A DNA stretch of 64,000 bases from Gracilinema caldarium DSM 7334 (GTDB taxonomy: Bacteria; Spirochaetota; Spirochaetia; Treponematales; Breznakiellaceae), in contig NC_015732.1 in assembly GCF_000219725.1 (NCBI RefSeq), forward strand, positions 1,054,001-1,118,000. Direction: 5' to 3'. This document shows, piece by piece, positions 3,178 through 16,364 of the stretch; positions within the stretch are counted from its first letter, which is position 1, and each line of letters starts with the position of its first letter. The notes under the pieces were generated by a model. The model was not told the DNA's origin and did not search any database. It saw only the letters and a list, made by a program, of their open reading frames with translations. The translations under genes were made by a program, and so were the position numbers.

Positions 3178-3627
3178 ATGAAGACGAAGCAGGATTTTCC
3201 GGCAATTAACGAACGGGAACCGGATGGACTCAAACCTGATGGTACACCCTACCGAGTGCTCGTAGTCGATGATTCCATGTTTGTAGCCAAGCAAATCGGG
3301 CAAATTCTAACTTCTGAAAGCTATGAAGTGGCCGCTACAGCTGCAGATGGTGAAGAGGGGGTAGAAAAATACAAGGAGCTATTCCCCAATATAGATCTTG
3401 TTACCATGGATATTACAATGCCAAAAATGGATGGGATCACCGCTCTGGAACATATTATGAATTTTGATAAAAACGCCAAAGTGGTAATGATCAGTGCCCT
3501 GGGTAAACAGGATCTGGTAAAGAAATCCTTACTGCTCGGTGCTAAAAATTATATAGTGAAACCATTAGATCGTAAAAAGGTCTTGGAACGTATTGCACAG
3601 GTGTTAGGTAAGACGTCAACTGCATAG
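3178..3627 (+). CDS. cheY: Chemotaxis response regulator CheY
   Basis: A single receiver domain of 149 residues. The acidic pair is in VLVVDDSMF, the phosphoacceptor Asp is in LVTMDITMPKMDG, the conserved Ser in VVMISALG and the Lys in YIVKPLD. An N-terminal extension of ~25 residues (MKTKQDFPAINEREPDGLKP) precedes the domain, as in other treponeme CheY proteins. CheY-P binds the flagellar motor switch. It is the last gene of the chemotaxis cluster; the next features are a separate promoter and a tRNA gene. Confidence 0.96.
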   Translation: MKTKQDFPAINEREPDGLKPDGTPYRVLVVDDSMFVAKQIGQILTSESYEVAATAADGEEGVEKYKELFPNIDLVTMDITMPKMDGITALEHIMNFDKNAKVVMISALGKQDLVKKSLLLGAKNYIVKPLDRKKVLERIAQVLGKTSTA

Positions 3628-3643
3628 CTGTGAGCGTTTTGTA

Positions 3644-3673
3644 TTGACAAAGTCCGCTCTTGTCTGGTATAAA
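3644..3673 (+). promoter_or_regulatory. Sigma-70-type promoter of the tRNA-Val gene
   Basis: A perfect -35 box TTGACA (3644-3649), an 18-bp spacer and a -10 box TATAAA (3668-3673) lie 10 bases before the mature tRNA 5' end. This is the strongest consensus-like promoter in this part of the window. Confidence 0.8.
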
Positions 3674-3683
3674 GAGCGGGTAC

Positions 3684-3757
3684 GGGCGGTTAGCTCAGTT
3701 GGTTAGAGCACCAGTATGACACGCTGGGGGTCACAAGTTCGACTCTTGTATCGCCCA
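3684..3757 (+). tRNA. tRNA-Val (GAC anticodon)
   Basis: A 74-nt cloverleaf. The acceptor stem GGGCGGT pairs with ATCGCCC and is followed by discriminator A. The anticodon arm is CCAGT / GCTGG around loop ATGACAC, giving anticodon GAC. The T arm is ACAAG / CTTGT around TTCGACT. No CCA is encoded. It reads GUC and GUU valine codons. It has its own promoter upstream and a strong terminator just downstream, so it is a single-gene unit. Confidence 0.96.
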
Positions 3758-3761
3758 TGGT

Positions 3762-3800
3762 AATCCCTTTTCAGAATTTCTGAAAAGGGATTTTTATTTT
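3762..3800 (+). terminator. Rho-independent terminator after tRNA-Val
   Basis: A near-perfect inverted repeat pairs AATCCCTTTTCAGAA (3762-3776) with its complement at 3778-3792 and is followed by a T-rich run. Confidence 0.9.
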
Positions 3801-3826
3801 TCCCCTTAATAATTTTCCTGCCCCCA

Positions 3827-3855
3827 TTGTTCCTGTATAAAATATTTACTATATT
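3827..3855 (+). promoter_or_regulatory. Predicted zwf promoter giving a leaderless mRNA
   Basis: The -35 box is TTGTTC (3827-3832) and the -10 box TATATT (3850-3855), with a 17-bp spacer. The predicted start is about 3861-3863, on the ATG at 3863. No Shine-Dalgarno sequence is visible in front of that ATG. The TTG that could extend the ORF upstream is part of the -35 box. Confidence 0.55.
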
Positions 3856-3862
3856 ACATAGC

Positions 3863-5341
3863 ATGGAACACAATATATTTGCAGAAGGTTTACCGGTACG
3901 CAGACGGCCTCGGCCTTTTTGTCTGCTTGTTTTTGGCGCCTCCGGAGATTTGGCTAACCGTAAATTGTATCCTGCCTTTTTTTCGCTGTACCGTGAGGGT
4001 GCCATCGATGATTGGTTCCTTGTAGGATTTGGAAGGCGTCCCTGGACAGACAGTGACTATAGAAAGGAAGTTGAAAAAGCTCTCGGTGGTTATCATCTAA
4101 CCGATGATGATCATCGGGATTTTCTGGAACGCTGTTTTTATATACAGGGTGATATTGATGATCTAGCAGCATATCAGAGACTGGCCGAATCCATCCATAC
4201 AGATCGGGATTTGGTAAGCTATCTTGCAGTGCCTCCTGAACAATATCAGCCTATTATCGATAATCTGTATCGATCCGGACTTTCTCGACGGCATTCATGT
4301 GCAAGCAGGGTGGTTGTGGAAAAACCCTTTGGGCGCAGTGGCCATGAAGCAGCAGAGCTAAATGATTTTATAACAGAAAGGTATGATGAATCTTCCGTTT
4401 TTAGAATAGATCACTATCTTGGAAAGGAAACCGTACAAAATATTGCGGTCTTTCGTTTTGGAAATGGCATATTCGAACCGATCTGGAATAATCACTATAT
4501 TCATCATGTAGAAATAACCGTTGCTGAAACCGTAGGGGTTGAAAAACGGGCCGCTTATTATGAACAATCGGGTGCACTTCGGGATATGGTACAAAATCAT
4601 CTGTTACAGCTTTTAGCTCTTGTGGCTATGGAACCTCCCACTTCTTTTACATCCGATATGGTCCGGGATGAAAAGGTAAAGGTCCTTCGAGCTTTGCGGC
4701 CCCTCTTGGATTTGGATATTTTCGCTAATACCCTTCGAGGTCAGTACAAGGCGGGACTTATCGATGGACAGCAGGTTCCGGCTTATCGAGAGGAACCGGG
4801 GGTAGATCCCAATTCTCAGACAGAAACCTATGCAGCCCTGGTCGCCCATATTGATTCATGGCGCTGGTACGGAGTTCCTTTTATACTGAGGACCGGCAAG
4901 CGGCTCAGCAGGAGAGTTTCCGAAATAGCTGTCCATTTTAAAAAGCCTGCTATGAATTTATTTCCGCAAGCCTTTGGCGGAGCCAATCAACTGGTATTCC
5001 GTATCCAACCCGATGAAGGGCTGACGCTCTATCTTAATACTAAAATACCCGGTCTTACGGATCATTCCCGTACAGTTTCCATGGATTTTCTGTATGGAAC
5101 CGGGTTCGGGCATCCATCGCCAGAGGCGTATGAACGTCTCTTGCTGGATGCTCTCATTGGTGATAGTACGCTTTACACGAGGCGAGATGAGGTAGAGGCT
5201 TCCTGGGCATTTATTGATCCTATCAGAGCTGCCTGGGATTCTGGATCCGTACCCTTGCATCTGTATGAAGCAGGCAGTTCTGGTCCAGTAGCAGCACAGG
5301 GCCTAGCAGAACGAATTGGCGATCATTGGAGGCGATTATAA
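3863..5341 (+). CDS. zwf: Glucose-6-phosphate 1-dehydrogenase
   Basis: Oxidises glucose 6-phosphate to 6-phosphogluconolactone with NAD(P)+, the entry step of the oxidative pentose phosphate pathway. The N-terminal Rossmann motif is GASGDLANRKLYPA and the active-site signature is FRIDHYLGKETVQN, containing the catalytic His region. About 492 residues from ATG 3863, the usual length. A TTG-initiated extension of 12 residues is rejected because it would start inside the promoter. The stop codon overlaps the ATG of opcA by one base (TAATG), so the two are translationally coupled. The call is secure; cofactor preference is not readable. Confidence 0.97.
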   Translation: MEHNIFAEGLPVRRRPRPFCLLVFGASGDLANRKLYPAFFSLYREGAIDDWFLVGFGRRPWTDSDYRKEVEKALGGYHLTDDDHRDFLERCFYIQGDIDDLAAYQRLAESIHTDRDLVSYLAVPPEQYQPIIDNLYRSGLSRRHSCASRVVVEKPFGRSGHEAAELNDFITERYDESSVFRIDHYLGKETVQNIAVFRFGNGIFEPIWNNHYIHHVEITVAETVGVEKRAAYYEQSGALRDMVQNHLLQLLALVAMEPPTSFTSDMVRDEKVKVLRALRPLLDLDIFANTLRGQYKAGLIDGQQVPAYREEPGVDPNSQTETYAALVAHIDSWRWYGVPFILRTGKRLSRRVSEIAVHFKKPAMNLFPQAFGGANQLVFRIQPDEGLTLYLNTKIPGLTDHSRTVSMDFLYGTGFGHPSPEAYERLLLDALIGDSTLYTRRDEVEASWAFIDPIRAAWDSGSVPLHLYEAGSSGPVAAQGLAERIGDHWRRL

Positions 5342-6415: not shown

Positions 6416-7486
6416 ATGAAAACCTTGACGAAACGAGAAGGGCCAATTAGGCTTGCCTTTTTTGATACCAAACCCTATGACCGGGAATATTTTGATGTTC
6501 ATAAAAATAATTATAACGTTGAAATAAAATATTACCCGGTAAAACTCTCTGCAGATACCGCAAGCCTCGCCAGGGGCTACGATGCGGTTTGCGCCTTTGT
6601 AAATGATGAACTAGATGCAGCAACGGCGGATATATTAGTTGAAGGTGGGGTCCAATTAGTGGCTATGCGTTGTGCGGGCTATAATAATGTGGACCTGAAA
6701 GCGATCTGGGGCCGGCTCCACGTGGTTCGGGTCCCTGCCTACTCGCCCCATGCGGTGGCTGAGCATGCGGTAGCTCTGCTTTTAACACTGAACCGGAGAA
6801 TCCATAAGGCCTATGTGAGAACAAAGGAGGGTAATTTTACACTTTCTGGTCTTGTTGGGTTTGACCTATACGGAAAAACCGCTGGCATTATCGGCACAGG
6901 TCAGATTGGGCGTATTGCAGCGGAAATATTTCGGGGTTTTGGCATGGACGTTCTTGCATCGGATCCCTATCCCAATGAGATCTGGGCTGCCGAAACGGGG
7001 GTCCGATATGTCAGTATGGAGGATCTGTTCCGCCAGAGCGATGTGGTAAGTCTTCATTGTCCCCTGACACCGGAAAATCATCATCTTATCAATGACAAGA
7101 GCCTTAGCTGGATGAAAAAGAATGCCATCATTATTAATACGGGCCGGGGAGCATTAATAGACACTAAAGCGCTAATTCATGCCCTTAAAACTAACAGTCT
7201 GGGAGGTGCTGCCCTGGATGTGTATGAAGAGGAGGATGAGTACTTTTTCGAAGATCATTCCACATCGGTTATTAAGGATGATGTACTGGCCAGGCTCTTA
7301 ACGTTCCCCAATGTACTCATCACAAGTCACCAGGCCTTTCTGACCCACGAGGCCTTAACCGCTATAGCAACAACTACCCTGGGTAATATACAAAACTATT
7401 TTGAAACGGGGGATCTTACCAACGAAATCTGTTATCGCTGTACCCAAAAGACCTGCAGTCGCAAGGAAACGGGCCGCTGTTTCTAG
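6416..7486 (+). CDS. ldhA: D-lactate dehydrogenase-type 2-hydroxyacid dehydrogenase
   Basis: Reduces a 2-oxoacid, most likely pyruvate to D-lactate, with NADH. Features are the Rossmann motif GIIGTGQIGRIAAEIFRGFG, the catalytic Arg region INTGRGALIDT, the Glu in VYEEED and the catalytic His in ITSHQAFLT. The segment DEYFFEDHS and the overall length of ~335 residues before the tail match the fermentative D-LDH branch. The protein ends with an extra cysteine-rich tail, CYRCTQKTCSRKETGRCF, with four cysteines (C-x2-C-x4-C-x7-C). A strong ribosome binding site, AAGGAGG, lies before the ATG. A palindromic promoter region suggests redox or anaerobic control. Substrate could differ within this family. 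Confidence 0.87.
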   Translation: MKTLTKREGPIRLAFFDTKPYDREYFDVHKNNYNVEIKYYPVKLSADTASLARGYDAVCAFVNDELDAATADILVEGGVQLVAMRCAGYNNVDLKAIWGRLHVVRVPAYSPHAVAEHAVALLLTLNRRIHKAYVRTKEGNFTLSGLVGFDLYGKTAGIIGTGQIGRIAAEIFRGFGMDVLASDPYPNEIWAAETGVRYVSMEDLFRQSDVVSLHCPLTPENHHLINDKSLSWMKKNAIIINTGRGALIDTKALIHALKTNSLGGAALDVYEEEDEYFFEDHSTSVIKDDVLARLLTFPNVLITSHQAFLTHEALTAIATTTLGNIQNYFETGDLTNEICYRCTQKTCSRKETGRCF

Positions 7487-9562: not shown

Positions 9563-11818
9563 ATGAAACCACGGCTTATACCCCTGTCATTTAAAGTGAT
9601 CGCCATCATTGTTGGCTCCCAACTCTTACTTTATATATTATTTGCCTTGCTCATTTTTAAAGGGAGTACCGATGCAATTACCGCGAGTGAGCAGGATTCA
9701 TTCCGCCTCCTTGGGGATACCATCCATTGGTCAATCGAAGATGAAATTGCCAGTGCTGAACTGACCCTGGACTATCTGGTCAAGGACCAGAGGCTACTTT
9801 CGTTATTTGCAAAAAGGGATCGGCTGGGGTTATACAATTACTTAAAAGATAAATATGAACCTCTCAAGCAGCGGGTAGTGAGATTCCATTTTCATCTTCC
9901 GAACGGGACTTCCTTTTTAAGGATGCATAATCCTGAATATTATGGTGATAATCTTTTAGATCTCCGTCCTATGGTACGGGCTGTGTTAGCTAAGAAAGAG
10001 AAAGTACAGGGCATGGAACGTGGTCGTGATGGTTTAGGGTTACGGGTTCTTATGCCTCTTTGGATGGATGGGGAATTCATTGGAGCTGTTGAATTTGGCA
10101 TGGATTTCGGAACTCTTTTTGTGCAAGGCCTTAAAAAGAAGTACGGAGGCGAATATTATATTTTTGTATTTGAAGATTCAATGCAATATCGTCTCGTAGC
10201 TGGAACTTTAGATAAACCCCGTTGTCCTACGGCAGATCGTTTAATTGAAAATCTGAGGGAAGGTAAGCCCCAACTTTCTCTTGATTGCAGTCATGCCCGG
10301 GCGGTTGGGTTATACCCTTACCGGGATTATTCAGGAACAGTTATTGGCTTTATCAAAGCAGAACTTCAAAAAATACCCCTTTCTGATGCGCTGGCCTCTA
10401 TTCAAAAACAACTCTTTCTTTTAGGGCTGGTTCTGGTTATTTCGCTTGTTGCTTCGAGCTTTTTTGCTATGAATAGTTTTTTAAGCCCCCTGGATGAGGT
10501 GGTGGCCAAGACTCATCAAATATCCGAAAAAATCATTGCCGGCGATGTAAGTTTTCGAGGCTCGATTCGGCATGGAGCGGCGGAGTATCAGGAAATTATC
10601 CATGCAGTGAATACCATTATCGATGCCCTCAGGGAGCGGGAGAGTCTTTTACAGGCTATCGTTGAGGGTATTCCTGGTATCGTGTATTATGTGGATAAAA
10701 ATCATAAGGTACTCTGGGCGAATAAGCTTACCCTTCAGCGGTTCCCCCAGCTTAAGGATAACTATCTCGATTCCTATACCTCAGGTTTTTTCGACATGGA
10801 ACGGGAGTTATTGCTTCGGGTCTTTAATTCGGGGAATATCGAATCCTATGATGCTTGTTATAGTATCAGGCCTGATGTTCAGGAATGCTGGGAACATGTA
10901 GCTGTTCCGGTATGTGATAGTGATGGAACCATTAGTCATGTAATCAGAATCTCCCAAGACATTTCTGATAAACGTAAGGCTGAAATGGAACTGAGAGAAC
11001 TGAACGAAACTCTGGAACGGAGAGTTGAGGAAGAAATTGCGCGGCGCCAAGAGGGAGAACGGATTGCAGAACAACAATCCCGGTTGGCAGCTCTTGGTGA
11101 ACTTGCTACGGGTATGGCCCATGAAATAACCCAACCATTGAATGCCATTGCTTTTTCTGTAGAAAATATAAAGAATCGTTTTGATCAAAATAATCTCACC
11201 GAAGAATATCTCTATAAAAAAAATGCTGCCATTGTTTCAGATATTGAACGGGTTCGGCGGGTTATTGAGCATGTCCGGCTTTTTGCGAGAGGCGGACTAA
11301 CCGATTATCAGACAGTATTTTCTGTCAATAATTGTGTCGAAAATGCCCTTTCGCTTATGGGGACCCAACTGGCTACTCATGGTATTGATGTGCAGCTGGA
11401 ACTCGACAACAGCCTGCCGGAAGTAAAAGGGAACCCCTTTCAGTATGAGCAGGTGGTCATCAATCTATTATCAAATGCCAGGGATGCGGTGGAGGAGCGC
11501 TTACTTGGTGACGCTGTTACCGATTTAAAAGATATAGCCCCTGGAAAAATTAGGATACAAACCGTATTGGTACAGAGCCTGATCAGGCTCGTGATTGAAG
11601 ATAATGGTATTGGCTTCTCACATGGGATAGAACAACGTATTTTTGATCCCTTTTTTACCACCAAACCTCCTGGGAAGGGAACAGGTCTTGGTCTATCCAT
11701 ATCCTATGGTATTATTCACCAGATGGGTGGTACGATCCGATTTGAGAGTCTAACTCAGGGAGTCCGGGCCTTTGTAGAAGTTCCGGTTGCTGACAATACA
11801 TCAGGCGGTCTGGTATGA
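9563..11818 (+). CDS. Membrane sensor histidine kinase with dCache-type sensor
   Basis: TM1 spans residues ~10-33. A periplasmic double-Cache domain follows (HFHLPNGTSFLRMHNPEYYGDNL is the family-typical stretch, here at ~111-133), then TM2 at ~283-303, a HAMP region, a PAS domain (~365-470), a coiled coil, HisKA with phospho-His in MAHEITQPLNAI, and HATPase (NLLSNARDAV; GKGTGLGLSISYG). It would autophosphorylate on a small-molecule cue and phosphorylate the regulator encoded next. The stop overlaps the regulator's ATG by 4 bases. A TACTAT -10-like box ends 6 bases before the ATG and no ribosome binding site is seen, but the -35 is poor. The ligand is unknown; the downstream sulfur operon makes a sulfur compound worth considering. 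Confidence 0.9.
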   Translation: MKPRLIPLSFKVIAIIVGSQLLLYILFALLIFKGSTDAITASEQDSFRLLGDTIHWSIEDEIASAELTLDYLVKDQRLLSLFAKRDRLGLYNYLKDKYEPLKQRVVRFHFHLPNGTSFLRMHNPEYYGDNLLDLRPMVRAVLAKKEKVQGMERGRDGLGLRVLMPLWMDGEFIGAVEFGMDFGTLFVQGLKKKYGGEYYIFVFEDSMQYRLVAGTLDKPRCPTADRLIENLREGKPQLSLDCSHARAVGLYPYRDYSGTVIGFIKAELQKIPLSDALASIQKQLFLLGLVLVISLVASSFFAMNSFLSPLDEVVAKTHQISEKIIAGDVSFRGSIRHGAAEYQEIIHAVNTIIDALRERESLLQAIVEGIPGIVYYVDKNHKVLWANKLTLQRFPQLKDNYLDSYTSGFFDMERELLLRVFNSGNIESYDACYSIRPDVQECWEHVAVPVCDSDGTISHVIRISQDISDKRKAEMELRELNETLERRVEEEIARRQEGERIAEQQSRLAALGELATGMAHEITQPLNAIAFSVENIKNRFDQNNLTEEYLYKKNAAIVSDIERVRRVIEHVRLFARGGLTDYQTVFSVNNCVENALSLMGTQLATHGIDVQLELDNSLPEVKGNPFQYEQVVINLLSNARDAVEERLLGDAVTDLKDIAPGKIRIQTVLVQSLIRLVIEDNGIGFSHGIEQRIFDPFFTTKPPGKGTGLGLSISYGIIHQMGGTIRFESLTQGVRAFVEVPVADNTSGGLV

Positions 11819-13254
11819 GTGATACACCTATAGCAGTTCTTGTACTAGATGATGAAACTCGATTGGCTGAAGAAATTGGAGAATATCTTGAGTCAAAAGG
11901 ATTTTCTGTATATGTAGCTGATAAGCCTTCTAAAGCATTCCAGATCATTCATGCAAATCCGATACAAATTGCCATGGTCGATATCAAGCTTCCGGAATAC
12001 GATGGGCTTACCTTTTTAAAAAAACTTCAGGCAGAACAGTCCATCATTGAAACCATCATCATGAGCGGTCATGGTGATATGGAAAGCGTGATTGAAGCGC
12101 TGCGGCTTGGGGCTTTTGATTATCTCAGAAAGCCCTTTACCAGCCTGGAGCTGGAAGCGGCCATCAACAGAATTAGCCGTTTTCTGGATGTTCAGCAGAA
12201 TTACCGGCGTTTTGCAAAAAAATGTATGGAATTGGAAGATCAGATCTATTCCGGTGATGATCTGATTGGGAAATCTCCTATCATTATAAAAATACGGGAA
12301 GAAATTGAACGGGCTGCCCAATTTCCTGATGTTTCTGTACTGATCCGGGGTGAGAGTGGAACCGGAAAGGAATTGGTAGCCCGGAGCATTCATCGGAAAA
12401 GTAATCGATCTTCAGGTTCCTTTGTGCCTGTGAATTGTGCTGCTATACCACGGGAAATGTTCGAAAGTGAATTTTTTGGTCATGCTAAAGGAGCCTTTAC
12501 CGATGCCCAAACCAGGCGGGATGGTCTTTTTAAAGCCGCCGATGGTGGGACCCTTTTCCTTGATGAGGTCGGAGAAATCCCTATAGAGTTGCAGGCAAAA
12601 TTGCTGCGAGTTCTGGAAGATAAGCGGGTTCGGCCTGTCGGGATGGATCGGGAAATCCCGACCGATGTCCGAGTCATCGGTGCGACCAATCGGGATTTAC
12701 TGGAAGAAGTTCGACAAGGTCGGTTCCGTAAAGATCTTTATTACCGATTGAATGTGATGGACATGTATATTCCACCTCTTCGTGAACGTTCCGAAGATAT
12801 TCCAGAATTAGCGTCCTTTTTTTACAAACAGGCCTCTCTTCGTTCCGGTAGACTTGTCGAACCTCTCGATGAGACCTTATTTGCTATCCTTTCCCAATAT
12901 TATTTCCCTGGCAATATCCGGGAGCTTAAAAATTTGATGGAACGGATTGTTATCCTGGGAAGAAAACCCAGCGAAAGGGATCTGATGGCTTGGCTTGATC
13001 CAGAACATTGTGGCTGTTTTAAAACCTTTTCTGAACCAGGCTTCAACGATCCAGCTCTACACCTGGATCTTCCTGTGAAAAAGGTGTCTTTAAGGGCAAT
13101 GCAGATGCAAGAATTAAATTTGGAACAGCTCGAAAGGAATGCTATTCAAGTGGCTTTGCAAACCTCCCGGGGAAATTTGTCCGCCGCTGCCCGGCTCCTT
13201 GGCATCACCCGGCAAGCCCTGGATCGGAGAATGAAAAAGTACGGACTTCAATAA
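11815..13254 (+). CDS. NtrC-family sigma-54-dependent response regulator
   Basis: The receiver domain has phosphoacceptor Asp in IAMVDIKLPEYDG. The AAA+ domain has Walker A GESGTGKE, the sigma-54-contacting GAFTDA loop intact, Walker B GGTLFLDEVGE, and arginine-finger region LYYRLNVM. A Fis-type helix-turn-helix closes the protein (LSAAARLLGITRQALDRRMK). It activates sigma-54 promoters from upstream sites. A sigma-54 promoter with three palindromic upstream sites lies directly downstream of this gene, which makes the sulfur operon its probable target. Partner of the kinase encoded upstream (4-base overlap). Confidence 0.95.
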   Translation: MSDTPIAVLVLDDETRLAEEIGEYLESKGFSVYVADKPSKAFQIIHANPIQIAMVDIKLPEYDGLTFLKKLQAEQSIIETIIMSGHGDMESVIEALRLGAFDYLRKPFTSLELEAAINRISRFLDVQQNYRRFAKKCMELEDQIYSGDDLIGKSPIIIKIREEIERAAQFPDVSVLIRGESGTGKELVARSIHRKSNRSSGSFVPVNCAAIPREMFESEFFGHAKGAFTDAQTRRDGLFKAADGGTLFLDEVGEIPIELQAKLLRVLEDKRVRPVGMDREIPTDVRVIGATNRDLLEEVRQGRFRKDLYYRLNVMDMYIPPLRERSEDIPELASFFYKQASLRSGRLVEPLDETLFAILSQYYFPGNIRELKNLMERIVILGRKPSERDLMAWLDPEHCGCFKTFSEPGFNDPALHLDLPVKKVSLRAMQMQELNLEQLERNAIQVALQTSRGNLSAAARLLGITRQALDRRMKKYGLQ

Positions 13255-13296: not shown

Positions 13297-13355
13297 TGTC
13301 CGTTTTTGGGCGTCCGTTTTCGGACACCCCATGCTTATGTGTCCATTTTCGTACA
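13297..13355 (+). promoter_or_regulatory. Three palindromic activator sites (TGTCCG-N4-CGGACA)
   Basis: Site 1 at 13297-13312 reads TGTCCG TTTT TGGGCG, site 2 at 13311-13326 CGTCCG TTTT CGGACA, site 3 at 13340-13355 TGTCCA TTTT CGTACA. All share the TTTT centre and two-fold symmetric arms. They lie ~110-165 bp upstream of the sigma-54 promoter, the usual distance for enhancer sites. A weaker pair, CGTACA and TGTACA (13271-13284), may be a fourth site. Confidence 0.75.
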
Positions 13356-13462
13356 TCAATCTACTGAAGCTCTTTAGATATATGCGCTCTGCATATATCT
13401 TTATCTATTTATCTATAAAGAATTATTTTTATTATTATTGTTTTCACCTGATTTAGAGTAAT

Positions 13463-13479
13463 TTGGCATACATTTTGCA
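13463..13479 (+). promoter_or_regulatory. Sigma-54 (-24/-12) promoter
   Basis: TTGGCATACATTTTGCA fits the consensus YTGGCACGN4TTGCW, with GG at 13465-13466 and GC at 13477-13478, exactly 12 bp apart. The predicted start is near 13490, giving a leader of ~44 nt that carries AAGGAG before the ATG at 13534. Confidence 0.85.
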
Positions 13480-13533
13480 TAAATATCTTTGCCGAAACAT
13501 CTCGGTACATATTTTATTGCAAGGAGCTTTATT

Positions 13534-13761
13534 ATGGCAGAACAGACCTTAGATTGTCTTGGCGAAGCATGCCCAGTACCTCTTATCAAAACTCAGAAGG
13601 CTATGGAAAAGATGGCCGTTGGTGATGTGTTAATTGTGAATATTGATCACAGCTGTGCAATGAAGAATGTACCTGACTGGGCCCGTTCTGTTGGCCACAA
13701 TGTTGAGATTGAAGAAGTCGCCGAAGGCGAATGGAACATTATTATCGAAAAGGTGAAATAA
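13534..13761 (+). CDS. TusA/SirA-like sulfur carrier protein
   Basis: A 75-residue TusA-family protein with the signature LDCLGEACPVPLIKT; the Cys of the CPxP motif carries persulfide or related sulfur. The C-terminal HSCAMKNVPDWARSVGH is also typical. The start at 13534 is chosen because of AAGGAG upstream; a longer frame reaching 13489 would begin at the predicted transcription start. It is the first gene of the sigma-54-driven operon and precedes two YeeE/YedE transporter halves. In TsuA/TsuB thiosulfate-uptake systems a TusA-like protein works with the transporter, which is the likely role here. Confidence 0.9.
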   Translation: MAEQTLDCLGEACPVPLIKTQKAMEKMAVGDVLIVNIDHSCAMKNVPDWARSVGHNVEIEEVAEGEWNIIIEKVK

Positions 13762-13771
13762 GGGGAAATCT

Positions 13772-14296
13772 ATGGACGAAAAAAAGAAATATCCCTTTCA
13801 TGAAAAATACTTTAAGAAAGAATGGAGCTATACGACGGGTTCTGTTCTGTTAGTGATGCTCGCGCTGGCCCTGGTTATTGTGACCGGTGGTTCCTGGGGT
13901 GTAACCGGTCCTCTTGGCATGTGGGGTGGAAAAATACTGCAGTTTATCGGTATTAATGCGGATGCATGGAAGGGTTATAACGGCAGTCTCGCAAAATATA
14001 ATTTCTGGAAAGATGCTACAGCAATTACCGACCTGGGTATTGTATTAGGTGCCTTCCTTTCTGTTCTTTTAGCAACACAATTTAAGATTAAAAAAATTAA
14101 GAGCATGAAGAATGTCTGGGCTGCAGTCCTGGGCGGTCTGCTCATGGGTATCGGTGCCCGCCTCTCTCTGGGTTGTAATATTGGAGCATTCTTTACCGCC
14201 CTTCCTGCGTTCTCTCTTCATGGCTGGGTCTTCTGGGTTTCCATCTTTGCTGGAGCTGCAGTGGGTAGTCAATTACTGAAAAAATACTTTATGTAG
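13772..14296 (+). CDS. YeeE/YedE-family sulfur transporter, N-terminal half
   Basis: A 174-residue membrane protein with about four hydrophobic helices. The family motif GIGARLSLGCNIGAFF contains the conserved Cys on the transport path. Full-length YeeE/TsuA (the structure was solved from a spirochete) has two pseudo-symmetric halves in one chain of ~330-350 residues. Here each half is its own gene. This is not a frameshift, because the second gene has its own start and ribosome binding site. Likely substrate is thiosulfate or another small sulfur anion (inference). Ten bases follow the TusA-like gene. Confidence 0.88.
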   Translation: MDEKKKYPFHEKYFKKEWSYTTGSVLLVMLALALVIVTGGSWGVTGPLGMWGGKILQFIGINADAWKGYNGSLAKYNFWKDATAITDLGIVLGAFLSVLLATQFKIKKIKSMKNVWAAVLGGLLMGIGARLSLGCNIGAFFTALPAFSLHGWVFWVSIFAGAAVGSQLLKKYFM

Positions 14297-14306
14297 GAGG
14301 CGAGAC

Positions 14307-15047
14307 ATGAGTGATACAACAACTTCTACCATTCGTAGAACCTCAACGCGAGCAAAGGAAACTCCGGAACAGCGGGCCCGAAAACAGAAAATCCAGCTTA
14401 CTGCTGGTGTGATTGTGGCTGTACTCCTGGTGCTTTTAGGCCTGTATATTCAGACCCAGAACCCCAAGGGTGCTTTTATTTGGATGATTGGTTTAGGCTT
14501 TGGTTATACCCTGCAGCGGTCCCGGTTCTGCTTTACCGCATCCATGCGGGATCCGGTGCTGACCGGTTCAACAGAGCTTACCAAGGCGGTCATTATCGCC
14601 CTTGCCCTCGCTTCTATCGGGTATATGGCGCTGCAGATGAAGCTCACCGGTGTCGGTCTTGAAAATCTGGGAACCGATGCCCTGAAGGATGCAACCAAGC
14701 TTCCCGGACATGTGCGGGCTGTTGGTGTGCATACGGTAATCGGCGGTTTCCTCTTCGGTATAGGGGCAGTTATTGCCGGCGGCTGTGCTTCAGGAACCCT
14801 GATGCGGATGGGTGAAGGCTTTGTTCAGCAGTGGATTGCGATCATCTTCTTTATCGCCGGCTCTGTTATTGGTATGGTGATTCTGCCCTATGTTCAGGCT
14901 AATCCGATTCTGTATCAGAAGGCCCCTGTATATTTACCCCAGCTTCTCGGCGGATGGGTACCGGCAATCATTGTTCAGTTTGGCCTGCTCTTTATGCTGT
15001 ATGTATTAGCTGACTGGTACGGAAAGAAAAAGGCTGGAGAACTTTAA
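14307..15047 (+). CDS. YeeE/YedE-family sulfur transporter, C-terminal half
   Basis: A 246-residue membrane protein. A charged cytoplasmic N-terminus (~30 residues) precedes helices with the two family motifs, RSRFCFTASMRDP and GGCASGTLMRMGEG, each with a conserved Cys. It pairs with the preceding gene to make a two-subunit version of YeeE/TsuA. Ribosome binding site GTAGGAGGCGAGAC precedes the ATG. The gene is followed two bases later by the reductase gene, so the operon is compact. Confidence 0.88.
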   Translation: MSDTTTSTIRRTSTRAKETPEQRARKQKIQLTAGVIVAVLLVLLGLYIQTQNPKGAFIWMIGLGFGYTLQRSRFCFTASMRDPVLTGSTELTKAVIIALALASIGYMALQMKLTGVGLENLGTDALKDATKLPGHVRAVGVHTVIGGFLFGIGAVIAGGCASGTLMRMGEGFVQQWIAIIFFIAGSVIGMVILPYVQANPILYQKAPVYLPQLLGGWVPAIIVQFGLLFMLYVLADWYGKKKAGEL

Positions 15048-15049
15048 TT

Positions 15050-16285
15050 ATGGAGAAAAAAATAGAACACTATGATGTGGTCGTTATCGGTGGAGGTCCC
15101 GCCGGAATGACCGCAGCATTGTATGCTGGGCGGGCTCGCCTTAAAACCCTGCTTATCGAGAAGTCTCTCATTGGTGGGATGGCAACCTACACCAGCGAGA
15201 TTGAAAACTATCCCGGTTTCCCGGAACCTATTGATGGCATTGAGCTCATGAAGCTCTTCGATAAGCAGTTCCGCCGTTTTGGGGTAGATGTAAAACTGAC
15301 CGATGTACGGTCTGTATCGGTGGAATGCAATCAGAAAATCGTTTCCACCTTCAGGACCGATTACTATGCGAAGGCGGTCATCATTTCCACAGGGAATAAG
15401 CCCCGCTTAACCGGTGCAAAAAATGAGGAAAAATTCCTGAATGATAAGGGGATTTCCTTCTGTGCTACCTGTGATGCTGCCCGCAATACGGGAAAACGTA
15501 TCATGGTCATCGGTTCCGGTGATGCCGCCATCGAAGAGGGGATGTTCCTTACCAAGTTTGCCCGGGAAGTGATCGTATCGGTTATTCATGATGAAGGCAT
15601 TATGGATGCCAACAAGGTTGCCCAGGAAAAAGCCCTGGCTAATCCCAAGATGAAATTCATGTGGAACACCGTGGTCGATTCCTTCGAGGGGGATGACACC
15701 TTAAAACAGGTAGTGCTGAAAAACATTAAAACCGGCGAGCTCATTCCCGTTGATGTAGATACCTGTTTCCTCTTCATCGGCTATGTACCCAATACTAAAA
15801 TGTTCGAAGGTTTCATCGATATGACCCAGCGGGGGTATATCAAAACCAATGAGAACATGGAAACCAGCCGGGAAGGCTTCTTTGCGGTCGGTGACTGCCG
15901 GGATAAAATCCTCCGTCAGGTTGCAACCGCTGTTGGTGATGGTGCCATTGCGGGCTTTATGGCTGAAAAGTATGTGGAAGAGCTTGAATATGTACAGCGG
16001 GAAATTTTCGAAGCCAAAGGGCTCATCATGGCCTTTGTGTATAACGCAGTAGAAGCTCTCGATCGGGAATTCCTGGCCAGGGTAGAACAGGTTCAGCGGG
16101 AACACAAGGATAAGATCCAGCTCAGACGGATTGATGTATATAAGTCTGATCGTATCGCCTGCCGCTTGGATTATACCAAGACCCCCTCCCTTATTTTCAT
16201 GAAGGATGGAAAGGTCCTGGAAAATGTAACCGATCTGAGTAATCTGGAACAAATGATTTCCCAGATGATTGCAAAATATGCATAA
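15050..16285 (+). CDS. Thioredoxin reductase-like flavoprotein fused to a degenerate thioredoxin-like domain
   Basis: Residues 1-~315 are a thioredoxin-reductase-type FAD/NAD(P)H enzyme: FAD motif IGGGPAGMTAALYAG, redox-active CATC at 138-141, nucleotide motif GSGDAAIEEG and C-terminal FAD motif FAVGDCRD. Residues ~320-411 look like a thioredoxin fold (LIMAFVYNAVEAL, then IDVYKSDRIACRLDY, TPSLIFMKDGKV), but the WCGPC site is replaced by YNAVEAL, so no CxxC is present. The operon position suggests it reduces sulfur bound to the TusA-like carrier or transporter cysteines. The fusion is unusual, since most such enzymes are ~310 residues. Confidence 0.88.
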   Translation: MEKKIEHYDVVVIGGGPAGMTAALYAGRARLKTLLIEKSLIGGMATYTSEIENYPGFPEPIDGIELMKLFDKQFRRFGVDVKLTDVRSVSVECNQKIVSTFRTDYYAKAVIISTGNKPRLTGAKNEEKFLNDKGISFCATCDAARNTGKRIMVIGSGDAAIEEGMFLTKFAREVIVSVIHDEGIMDANKVAQEKALANPKMKFMWNTVVDSFEGDDTLKQVVLKNIKTGELIPVDVDTCFLFIGYVPNTKMFEGFIDMTQRGYIKTNENMETSREGFFAVGDCRDKILRQVATAVGDGAIAGFMAEKYVEELEYVQREIFEAKGLIMAFVYNAVEALDREFLARVEQVQREHKDKIQLRRIDVYKSDRIACRLDYTKTPSLIFMKDGKVLENVTDLSNLEQMISQMIAKYA

Positions 16286-16329
16286 GCAGCTGGTTCGCAG
16301 GAAACCCTGAAGAAACCACGCTTGAAACG

Positions 16330-16364
16330 AAACCCCCGGGTCAGTTCTGATTCGGGGGTTTTTC
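16330..16364 (+). terminator. Rho-independent terminator of the sulfur operon
   Basis: AAACCCCCG pairs with CGGGGGTTT across a 14-nt loop and is followed by TTTTTC. It separates the sigma-54 operon from the mrp promoter. Confidence 0.85.

Follow-up and report, generated by a model that had tools for sequence, protein, structure and literature searches.

The stretch of the Gracilinema caldarium DSM 7334 genome analysed here contains what is probably a dedicated local two-component circuit that places a sulfur-import operon under sigma-54 control. We regard this as the best explanation of the comparative sequence data, with a probability of about 0.75, and judge this sigma-54 sulfur-uptake circuit, so far undescribed, to be genuine. 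The window, i.e. the whole stretch of 64,000 nucleotides, corresponds to positions 1054001-1118000 of the complete 3,239,340-bp genome. A histidine kinase gene and an NtrC-family regulator gene are followed in this order by tusA, the first and the second half of yeeE, and a thioredoxin-reductase-like gene (13534-16285). The 279-bp intergenic region between the regulator gene and tusA holds the palindromes and the promoter (Table 1). The locus forms a compact circuit in which the predicted regulator lies together with its predicted binding sites, promoter, and target operon. The import of sulfur compounds by bacteria and the sensing of external sulfur have been described as poorly understood (PMC11582611).

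Table 1. Predicted features of the circuit and its target operon (positions in the window).
Feature	Position	Strand	Evidence and remarks
Sensor histidine kinase	9563..11818	+	Periplasmic dCache_3, PAS_4, HisKA (HEITQPL), HATPase_c (Pfam); AlphaFold sensor model pLDDT 80.8
NtrC-family enhancer-binding response regulator	11815..13254	+	Pfam; GAFTDA loop; recognition helix ITRQALDRR; clade 100/97
Upstream activator palindrome 1 (putative), TGTCCGTTTTTGGGCG	13297..13312	.	Pattern match; kept in orthologues
Upstream activator palindrome 2 (putative), CGTCCGTTTTCGGACA	13311..13326	.	2-bp overlap with palindrome 1; the 14-bp tandem is also found in L039, L040, L042, L043
Upstream activator palindrome 3 (putative), TGTCCATTTTCGTACA	13340..13355	.	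Pattern match; orthologue comparison
Inverted repeat AGATATATGC-GCTCT-GCATATATCT	13376..13400	.	Between activator sites and promoter; window only
-24/-12 sigma-54 promoter, TGGCATACATTTTGCA	13464..13479	+	Pattern match; perfect or near-perfect, same place in orthologues
Small hairpin TGCCGAaacatcTCGGTA, predicted transcript start	13490..13507	+	Stronger in L039, L041, L042; absent in L045, L091
TusA-family sulfur carrier, CPxP motif	13534..13761	+	Pfam PF01206; best NCBIfam TsuB/YeeD, below cut-off
YeeE/YedE half 1	13772..14296	+	Cys135 aligns with third transport Cys of TsuA
YeeE/YedE half 2	14307..15047	+	Cys75, Cys160 align with first, second transport Cys of TsuA
Thioredoxin-reductase-like flavoprotein (CATC)	15050..16285	+	C-terminal thioredoxin-like domain
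Strong intrinsic terminator, 15 pairs	16329..16362	+	Closes operon ahead of Mrp-like gene

The preliminary description of this DNA had claimed three palindromes 110-165 bp upstream of a consensus -24/-12 promoter. We found them at the positions claimed and at a distance of 109-167 bp, in agreement with that account. Compared to TGTCCG-N4-CGGACA, the sites at 13297-13312, 13311-13326, and 13340-13355 carry three, one, and two mismatches, respectively. Single matches with up to three mismatches are not above chance in the 64-kb window (14 found, 18 expected). The intergenic cluster goes beyond chance, with three matches to TGYCCG-N4-CGGRCA (up to two mismatches) within 279 bp where 0.009 are expected, a result reached in 0 of 2000 shuffles. 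The consensus of 20 sites across orthologues is TGYCCG-WWTT-CGGRCA. Two 16-bp palindromes with a 2-bp overlap, i.e. a 14-bp step, recur in the window, L039, L040, L042, and L043, and downstream of this pair the window, L040, L042, and L043 carry a third site. A genome-wide search revealed no enrichment that would indicate a wider regulon, with 64 forward sites (up to two mismatches) against 110 for a control pattern. Only two exact copies were found elsewhere in the genome; since one is located in a terminator-like hairpin and the other inside an ORF, the array looks specific to the TusA-YeeE operon.

The promoter described as facing the TusA-YeeE-YeeE-reductase operon is indeed present, one mismatch away from TGGCACN5TTGCW, and the genome has a single copy of rpoN. 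Upstream of orthologous tusA genes the element is often a perfect TGGCACN5TTGC[AT], with a weaker version carrying two mismatches in L091. The regulator contains the Pfam domains Response_reg, Sigma54_activat, and HTH_8, and both GESGTGKE and the reportedly intact GAFTDA loop were found. Canonically this loop reads GAFTGA; GAFTDA is among the listed variants thought to retain activity (PMC4641369). The locus hence combines an AAA+ domain with Walker A, a GAFTGA-type loop in its GAFTDA variant, a -24/-12 promoter, and rpoN, as expected for sigma-54 activation. Near the predicted transcript start, a 5' hairpin (13490-13507; also in L039, L040, L041, and L042) differs in sequence between orthologues, is strong in L039, L041, and L042, and possibly protects the 5' end of the transcript. 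We rejected it as a shared RNA element, as it is missing from some orthologues (L045, L091).

For comparison we used fetched relatives of the second YeeE half and searches of whole spirochaete genomes; the nearest relatives among the fetched loci were L039 (a Treponema sp. assembly) and L040 (a Gracilinema caldarium assembly). The palindromes proved to be conserved near orthologous operons, in the same layout, wherever the cognate kinase-regulator pair is present: palindromes and a sigma-54 promoter occur in all eight orthologous operons whose genome has the pair, seven of them spirochaete-type and one from a Syntrophaceae assembly. Palindromes plus -24/-12 element lie upstream of tusA in L039, L040, L041, L042, L043, L045, and L091, with the array starting 174-279 bp before tusA; shuffling gave p values of 0 to 0.011 for each of seven orthologous operons. 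Kinase and regulator genes are found directly upstream of the operon in L040, L042, L043, L045, and L091. The L039 locus is cut by a contig end, with the regulator still visible. In genome G343 (L041/L092) the pair is located about 8 kb downstream of the operon on the opposite strand, and palindromes and promoter are kept. The regulator gene of this genome (L092, 3454-4836, minus strand) is interrupted by an in-frame stop immediately ahead of the GAFTDA loop, which reflects either real decay or an assembly error.

Close operons that have no cognate regulator (L044, L093, L094) showed no palindrome within 350 bp upstream and no sigma-54 promoter, and the L044 genome encodes generic regulators only. 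Likewise, among the distant operons L046, L047, L049, L050, and L095-L100, neither an adjacent cognate regulator nor a palindrome-promoter unit was found. Among 393 Spirochaetota genomes, G000, G305, G343, and G096 gave the four top matches to the regulator and are at the same time the four with the best-scoring YeeE half. On the tree of operons, presence of the regulator is a clustered trait, with none of 500 shuffles reaching so low a value, yet it requires three changes, indicating that the regulator was gained or lost more than once. Two further candidates were rejected. For L048, where a regulator-like gene is present, the -24/-12 match falls downstream of the operon. In L051 (candidate division KSB3) the regulator belongs to a sister clade and no full palindrome was found; its region 6728-7057 combines a divergent regulator with a perfect -24/-12 element and TGCCCG/CGGGCA half-sites that span 29 bp end to end. 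L051 may represent an independent or older version of the circuit.

The regulators of the palindrome-bearing operons form one clade (100/97 support) and have the recognition helix [IL][TS]RQ[AS]L[DEL]RR in common. The sister-clade members L122 and L123, whose helix reads RQALDRK, both have palindromes despite other targets, and no palindromes were found for members with other helices (L119, L120, L121). Tabulated against each other, helix and palindrome gave counts of 10, 1, 1, and 28 (Fisher 1.4e-7), with rows that are related and not independent. As judged from these sequences, the palindrome tracks the regulator type rather than the operon, and it is mainly for this reason that we take the regulator to bind the palindromes. 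It might be argued that the palindromes are sites of another regulator, or leftovers, and that the adjacent regulator acts elsewhere, as the palindromes in L042 overlap the end of the regulator gene. We consider this very unlikely, given that palindromes vanish where the regulator is missing and appear with sister regulators of the same recognition helix. The kinase-regulator pair is most likely what controls the operon, because the palindromes are kept upstream of its orthologues and go along with the adjacent regulator. In addition, the comparison ties a recognition-helix sequence of an enhancer-binding protein to a predicted binding motif. It is the wiring of the circuit that this comparative evidence backs, not its chemistry. 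In L122, a palindrome and a perfect -24/-12 element (7163-7300) precede an MCP-like/CheY-like operon of the chemotaxis type.

What the operon imports is a matter of graded likelihood. The two YeeE halves comprise 174 and 246 aa, and for both the top-scoring model is YedE/FdhT, which they match consecutively (positions 1-160 and 169-382), with scores below the family cut-off. Read this way, with TusA as a YedF-like partner, the operon would import selenium and the circuit would respond to selenium status. However, selD was not found above cut-off in any of the four phylum genomes with the regulator-controlled operon (G000, G305, G343, G096), and TusA matches TsuB/YeeD best. Selenium is therefore an unlikely substrate, although a YedE-like protein of Methanococcus has been reported to transport it (PMC11582611); we rejected selenium transport by the operon on the absence of selD, and regard a selenium circuit as extremely improbable. 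For a sulfur source, three YeeE cysteines align with the transport cysteines of Spirochaeta thermophila TsuA, and neither these three nor the CPxP cysteine of TusA vary in any of the 23 operons compared. The NCBIfam cut-offs for TsuA (47 and 67 bits for the halves, cut-off 400) and TsuB (53.7 for TusA, cut-off 147.5) were not reached, though TsuB/YeeD is the best-scoring model for TusA. A DsrE-family gene, a criterion for YTD clusters, was not found in the operon, which consists of TusA, two YeeE halves, and the reductase only, followed by a terminator. A genome search turned up neither a sulfite reductase nor a PAPS reductase domain, so that importing sulfur in reduced form would be plausible.

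Thiosulfate is taken up by YeeE/YeeD (PMC11073785) and induces Thermotoga yeeE 42.6-fold (PMC9431562), and zero-valent sulfur has been reported as cargo of a YedE1E2 pair (PMC10812762); by sequence, both are possible substrates here. Alternatively, sulfane sulfur or polysulfide could induce the circuit and be imported as an electron sink, with release of sulfide for redox balance, and not as growth sulfur. The operon's own thioredoxin-reductase-like enzyme with its C-terminal thioredoxin-like domain is in line with such a use, as are zero-valent sulfur import by the YedE1E2 pair and the joint induction of Thermotoga yeeE and a reductase by thiosulfate or S0 (PMC9431562). The same cysteines, however, serve TsuA-type thiosulfate uptake, and nothing in the sequence tells the two uses apart. 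We hold the electron sink to be a tentative possibility, somewhat doubtful at present. Of the sulfur-uptake circuit proposed earlier, the wiring of pair and operon has thus stood, as the palindromes are conserved and follow the regulator, and thiosulfate is no more than a possible substrate, given halves that score best as YedE/FdhT-type.

Architecture, conservation, and the palindrome-regulator link are read from the sequence, and it is phosphorylation, binding, the signal, and the substrate (thiosulfate or another sulfane-sulfur compound) that we infer. In the proposed sigma-54 circuit, the membrane kinase would detect a reduced-sulfur signal and phosphorylate the adjacent NtrC-type activator, dimers of which would bind the three TGYCCG-N4-CGGRCA palindromes and assemble there. 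The assembled activator would loop the DNA and remodel sigma-54 polymerase at the -24/-12 promoter, which would drive the tusA-yeeE1-yeeE2-reductase operon. The two YeeE halves would together make up a single importer whose three cysteines relay the sulfur. The CPxP cysteine of TusA would accept it, and reduction by the flavoprotein may then release the TusA-carried sulfur as sulfide.

The signal had been ascribed to a ligand seen by the dCache domain of the kinase, the sole dCache_3 domain found in the genome. The sensor model (mean pLDDT 80.8) matches Cache sensors, namely citrate-bound CitA (Z 16.2, 1.7 A across 123 residues) as well as LuxQ and DctB. As modelled, the fold fits an anion-type ligand without naming one. 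This assignment is tentative, since the kinase of L043 has no dCache domain and keeps the rest of the circuit: in this assembly, named Syntrophus, the kinase (3296-4954) retains its core, and regulator, palindromes, promoter, and operon are intact. Such natural variants, in which the sensor or the regulator is missing or the regulator has moved, make signal and substrate directly testable. All six orthologues with a dCache domain retain two cysteines near residues 221 and 242, in the membrane-proximal periplasmic sensor, and most orthologues retain a further pair within the PAS domain (motif ACY...QECWEH). That the kinase senses sulfane sulfur directly via these conserved pairs, and that spirochaetes and Acidithiobacillus independently evolved sigma-54 sulfur circuits with near-identical palindromes, appears unlikely as a combined proposal.

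A search of freely accessible papers found no description of this circuit. The earlier statement that no such circuit for thiosulfate uptake is described for spirochetes accordingly holds for the literature covered, and needs qualifying in that the circuit reaches beyond spirochaetes and has a precedent in TspS/TspR of Acidithiobacillus caldus. This sigma-54 two-component thiosulfate circuit, with the site TGTCCCAAATGGGACA and the sox cluster as target (PMC6335251), is the nearest known one; it works alike and is a close functional precedent. Both are sigma-54-dependent two-component systems with a Cache-type sensor adjoining a sulfur operon, and both sites are 16-bp palindromes, TGTCCC-N4-GGGACA and TGTCCG-N4-CGGACA, that differ in one half-site base (here TGYCCG). 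In contrast, TspS/TspR drives thiosulfate oxidation by sox, whereas the target here, TusA-YeeE-YeeE-reductase, points to uptake and reduction. TspR was rejected as an orthologue, with 36-37% identity and a position outside the operon-regulator clade; its type has an AAFTGA-type loop and the helix ISRKQLRTK compared to ITRQALDRR. Since the Tsp regulator is distant and has a different recognition helix, the likeness of the sites is convergent or very old.

Other known systems resemble parts of the locus. TsuA/TsuB (YeeE/YeeD; PMC11073785) likewise combine a YeeE-family importer and a TusA-family partner with conserved relay and CPxP cysteines, but here the importer is split over two genes and is nearer to YedE/FdhT by profile, and a reductase gene is added. 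The importer also consists of two halves in the split YeeE pairs YedE1E2 and PmpAB (PMC10812762, PMC11582611), whereas here three cysteines are kept, the halves are larger, and TusA and reductase lie within the operon. DctB/DctD-type pairs have in common the Cache sensor (with fold matches to CitA, DctB, and LuxQ) and the REC-AAA-Fis regulator; the target here is, however, a sulfur operon. In the two genomes with the exact Tsp site (L117, L118), regulator, site, -24/-12 element, and sox-like genes, recognised by eye from the sequence, follow in a row. The activator site lies about 140 bp upstream of the -24/-12 element in both, a spacing like that found here, and is a single site as opposed to the array in the window.
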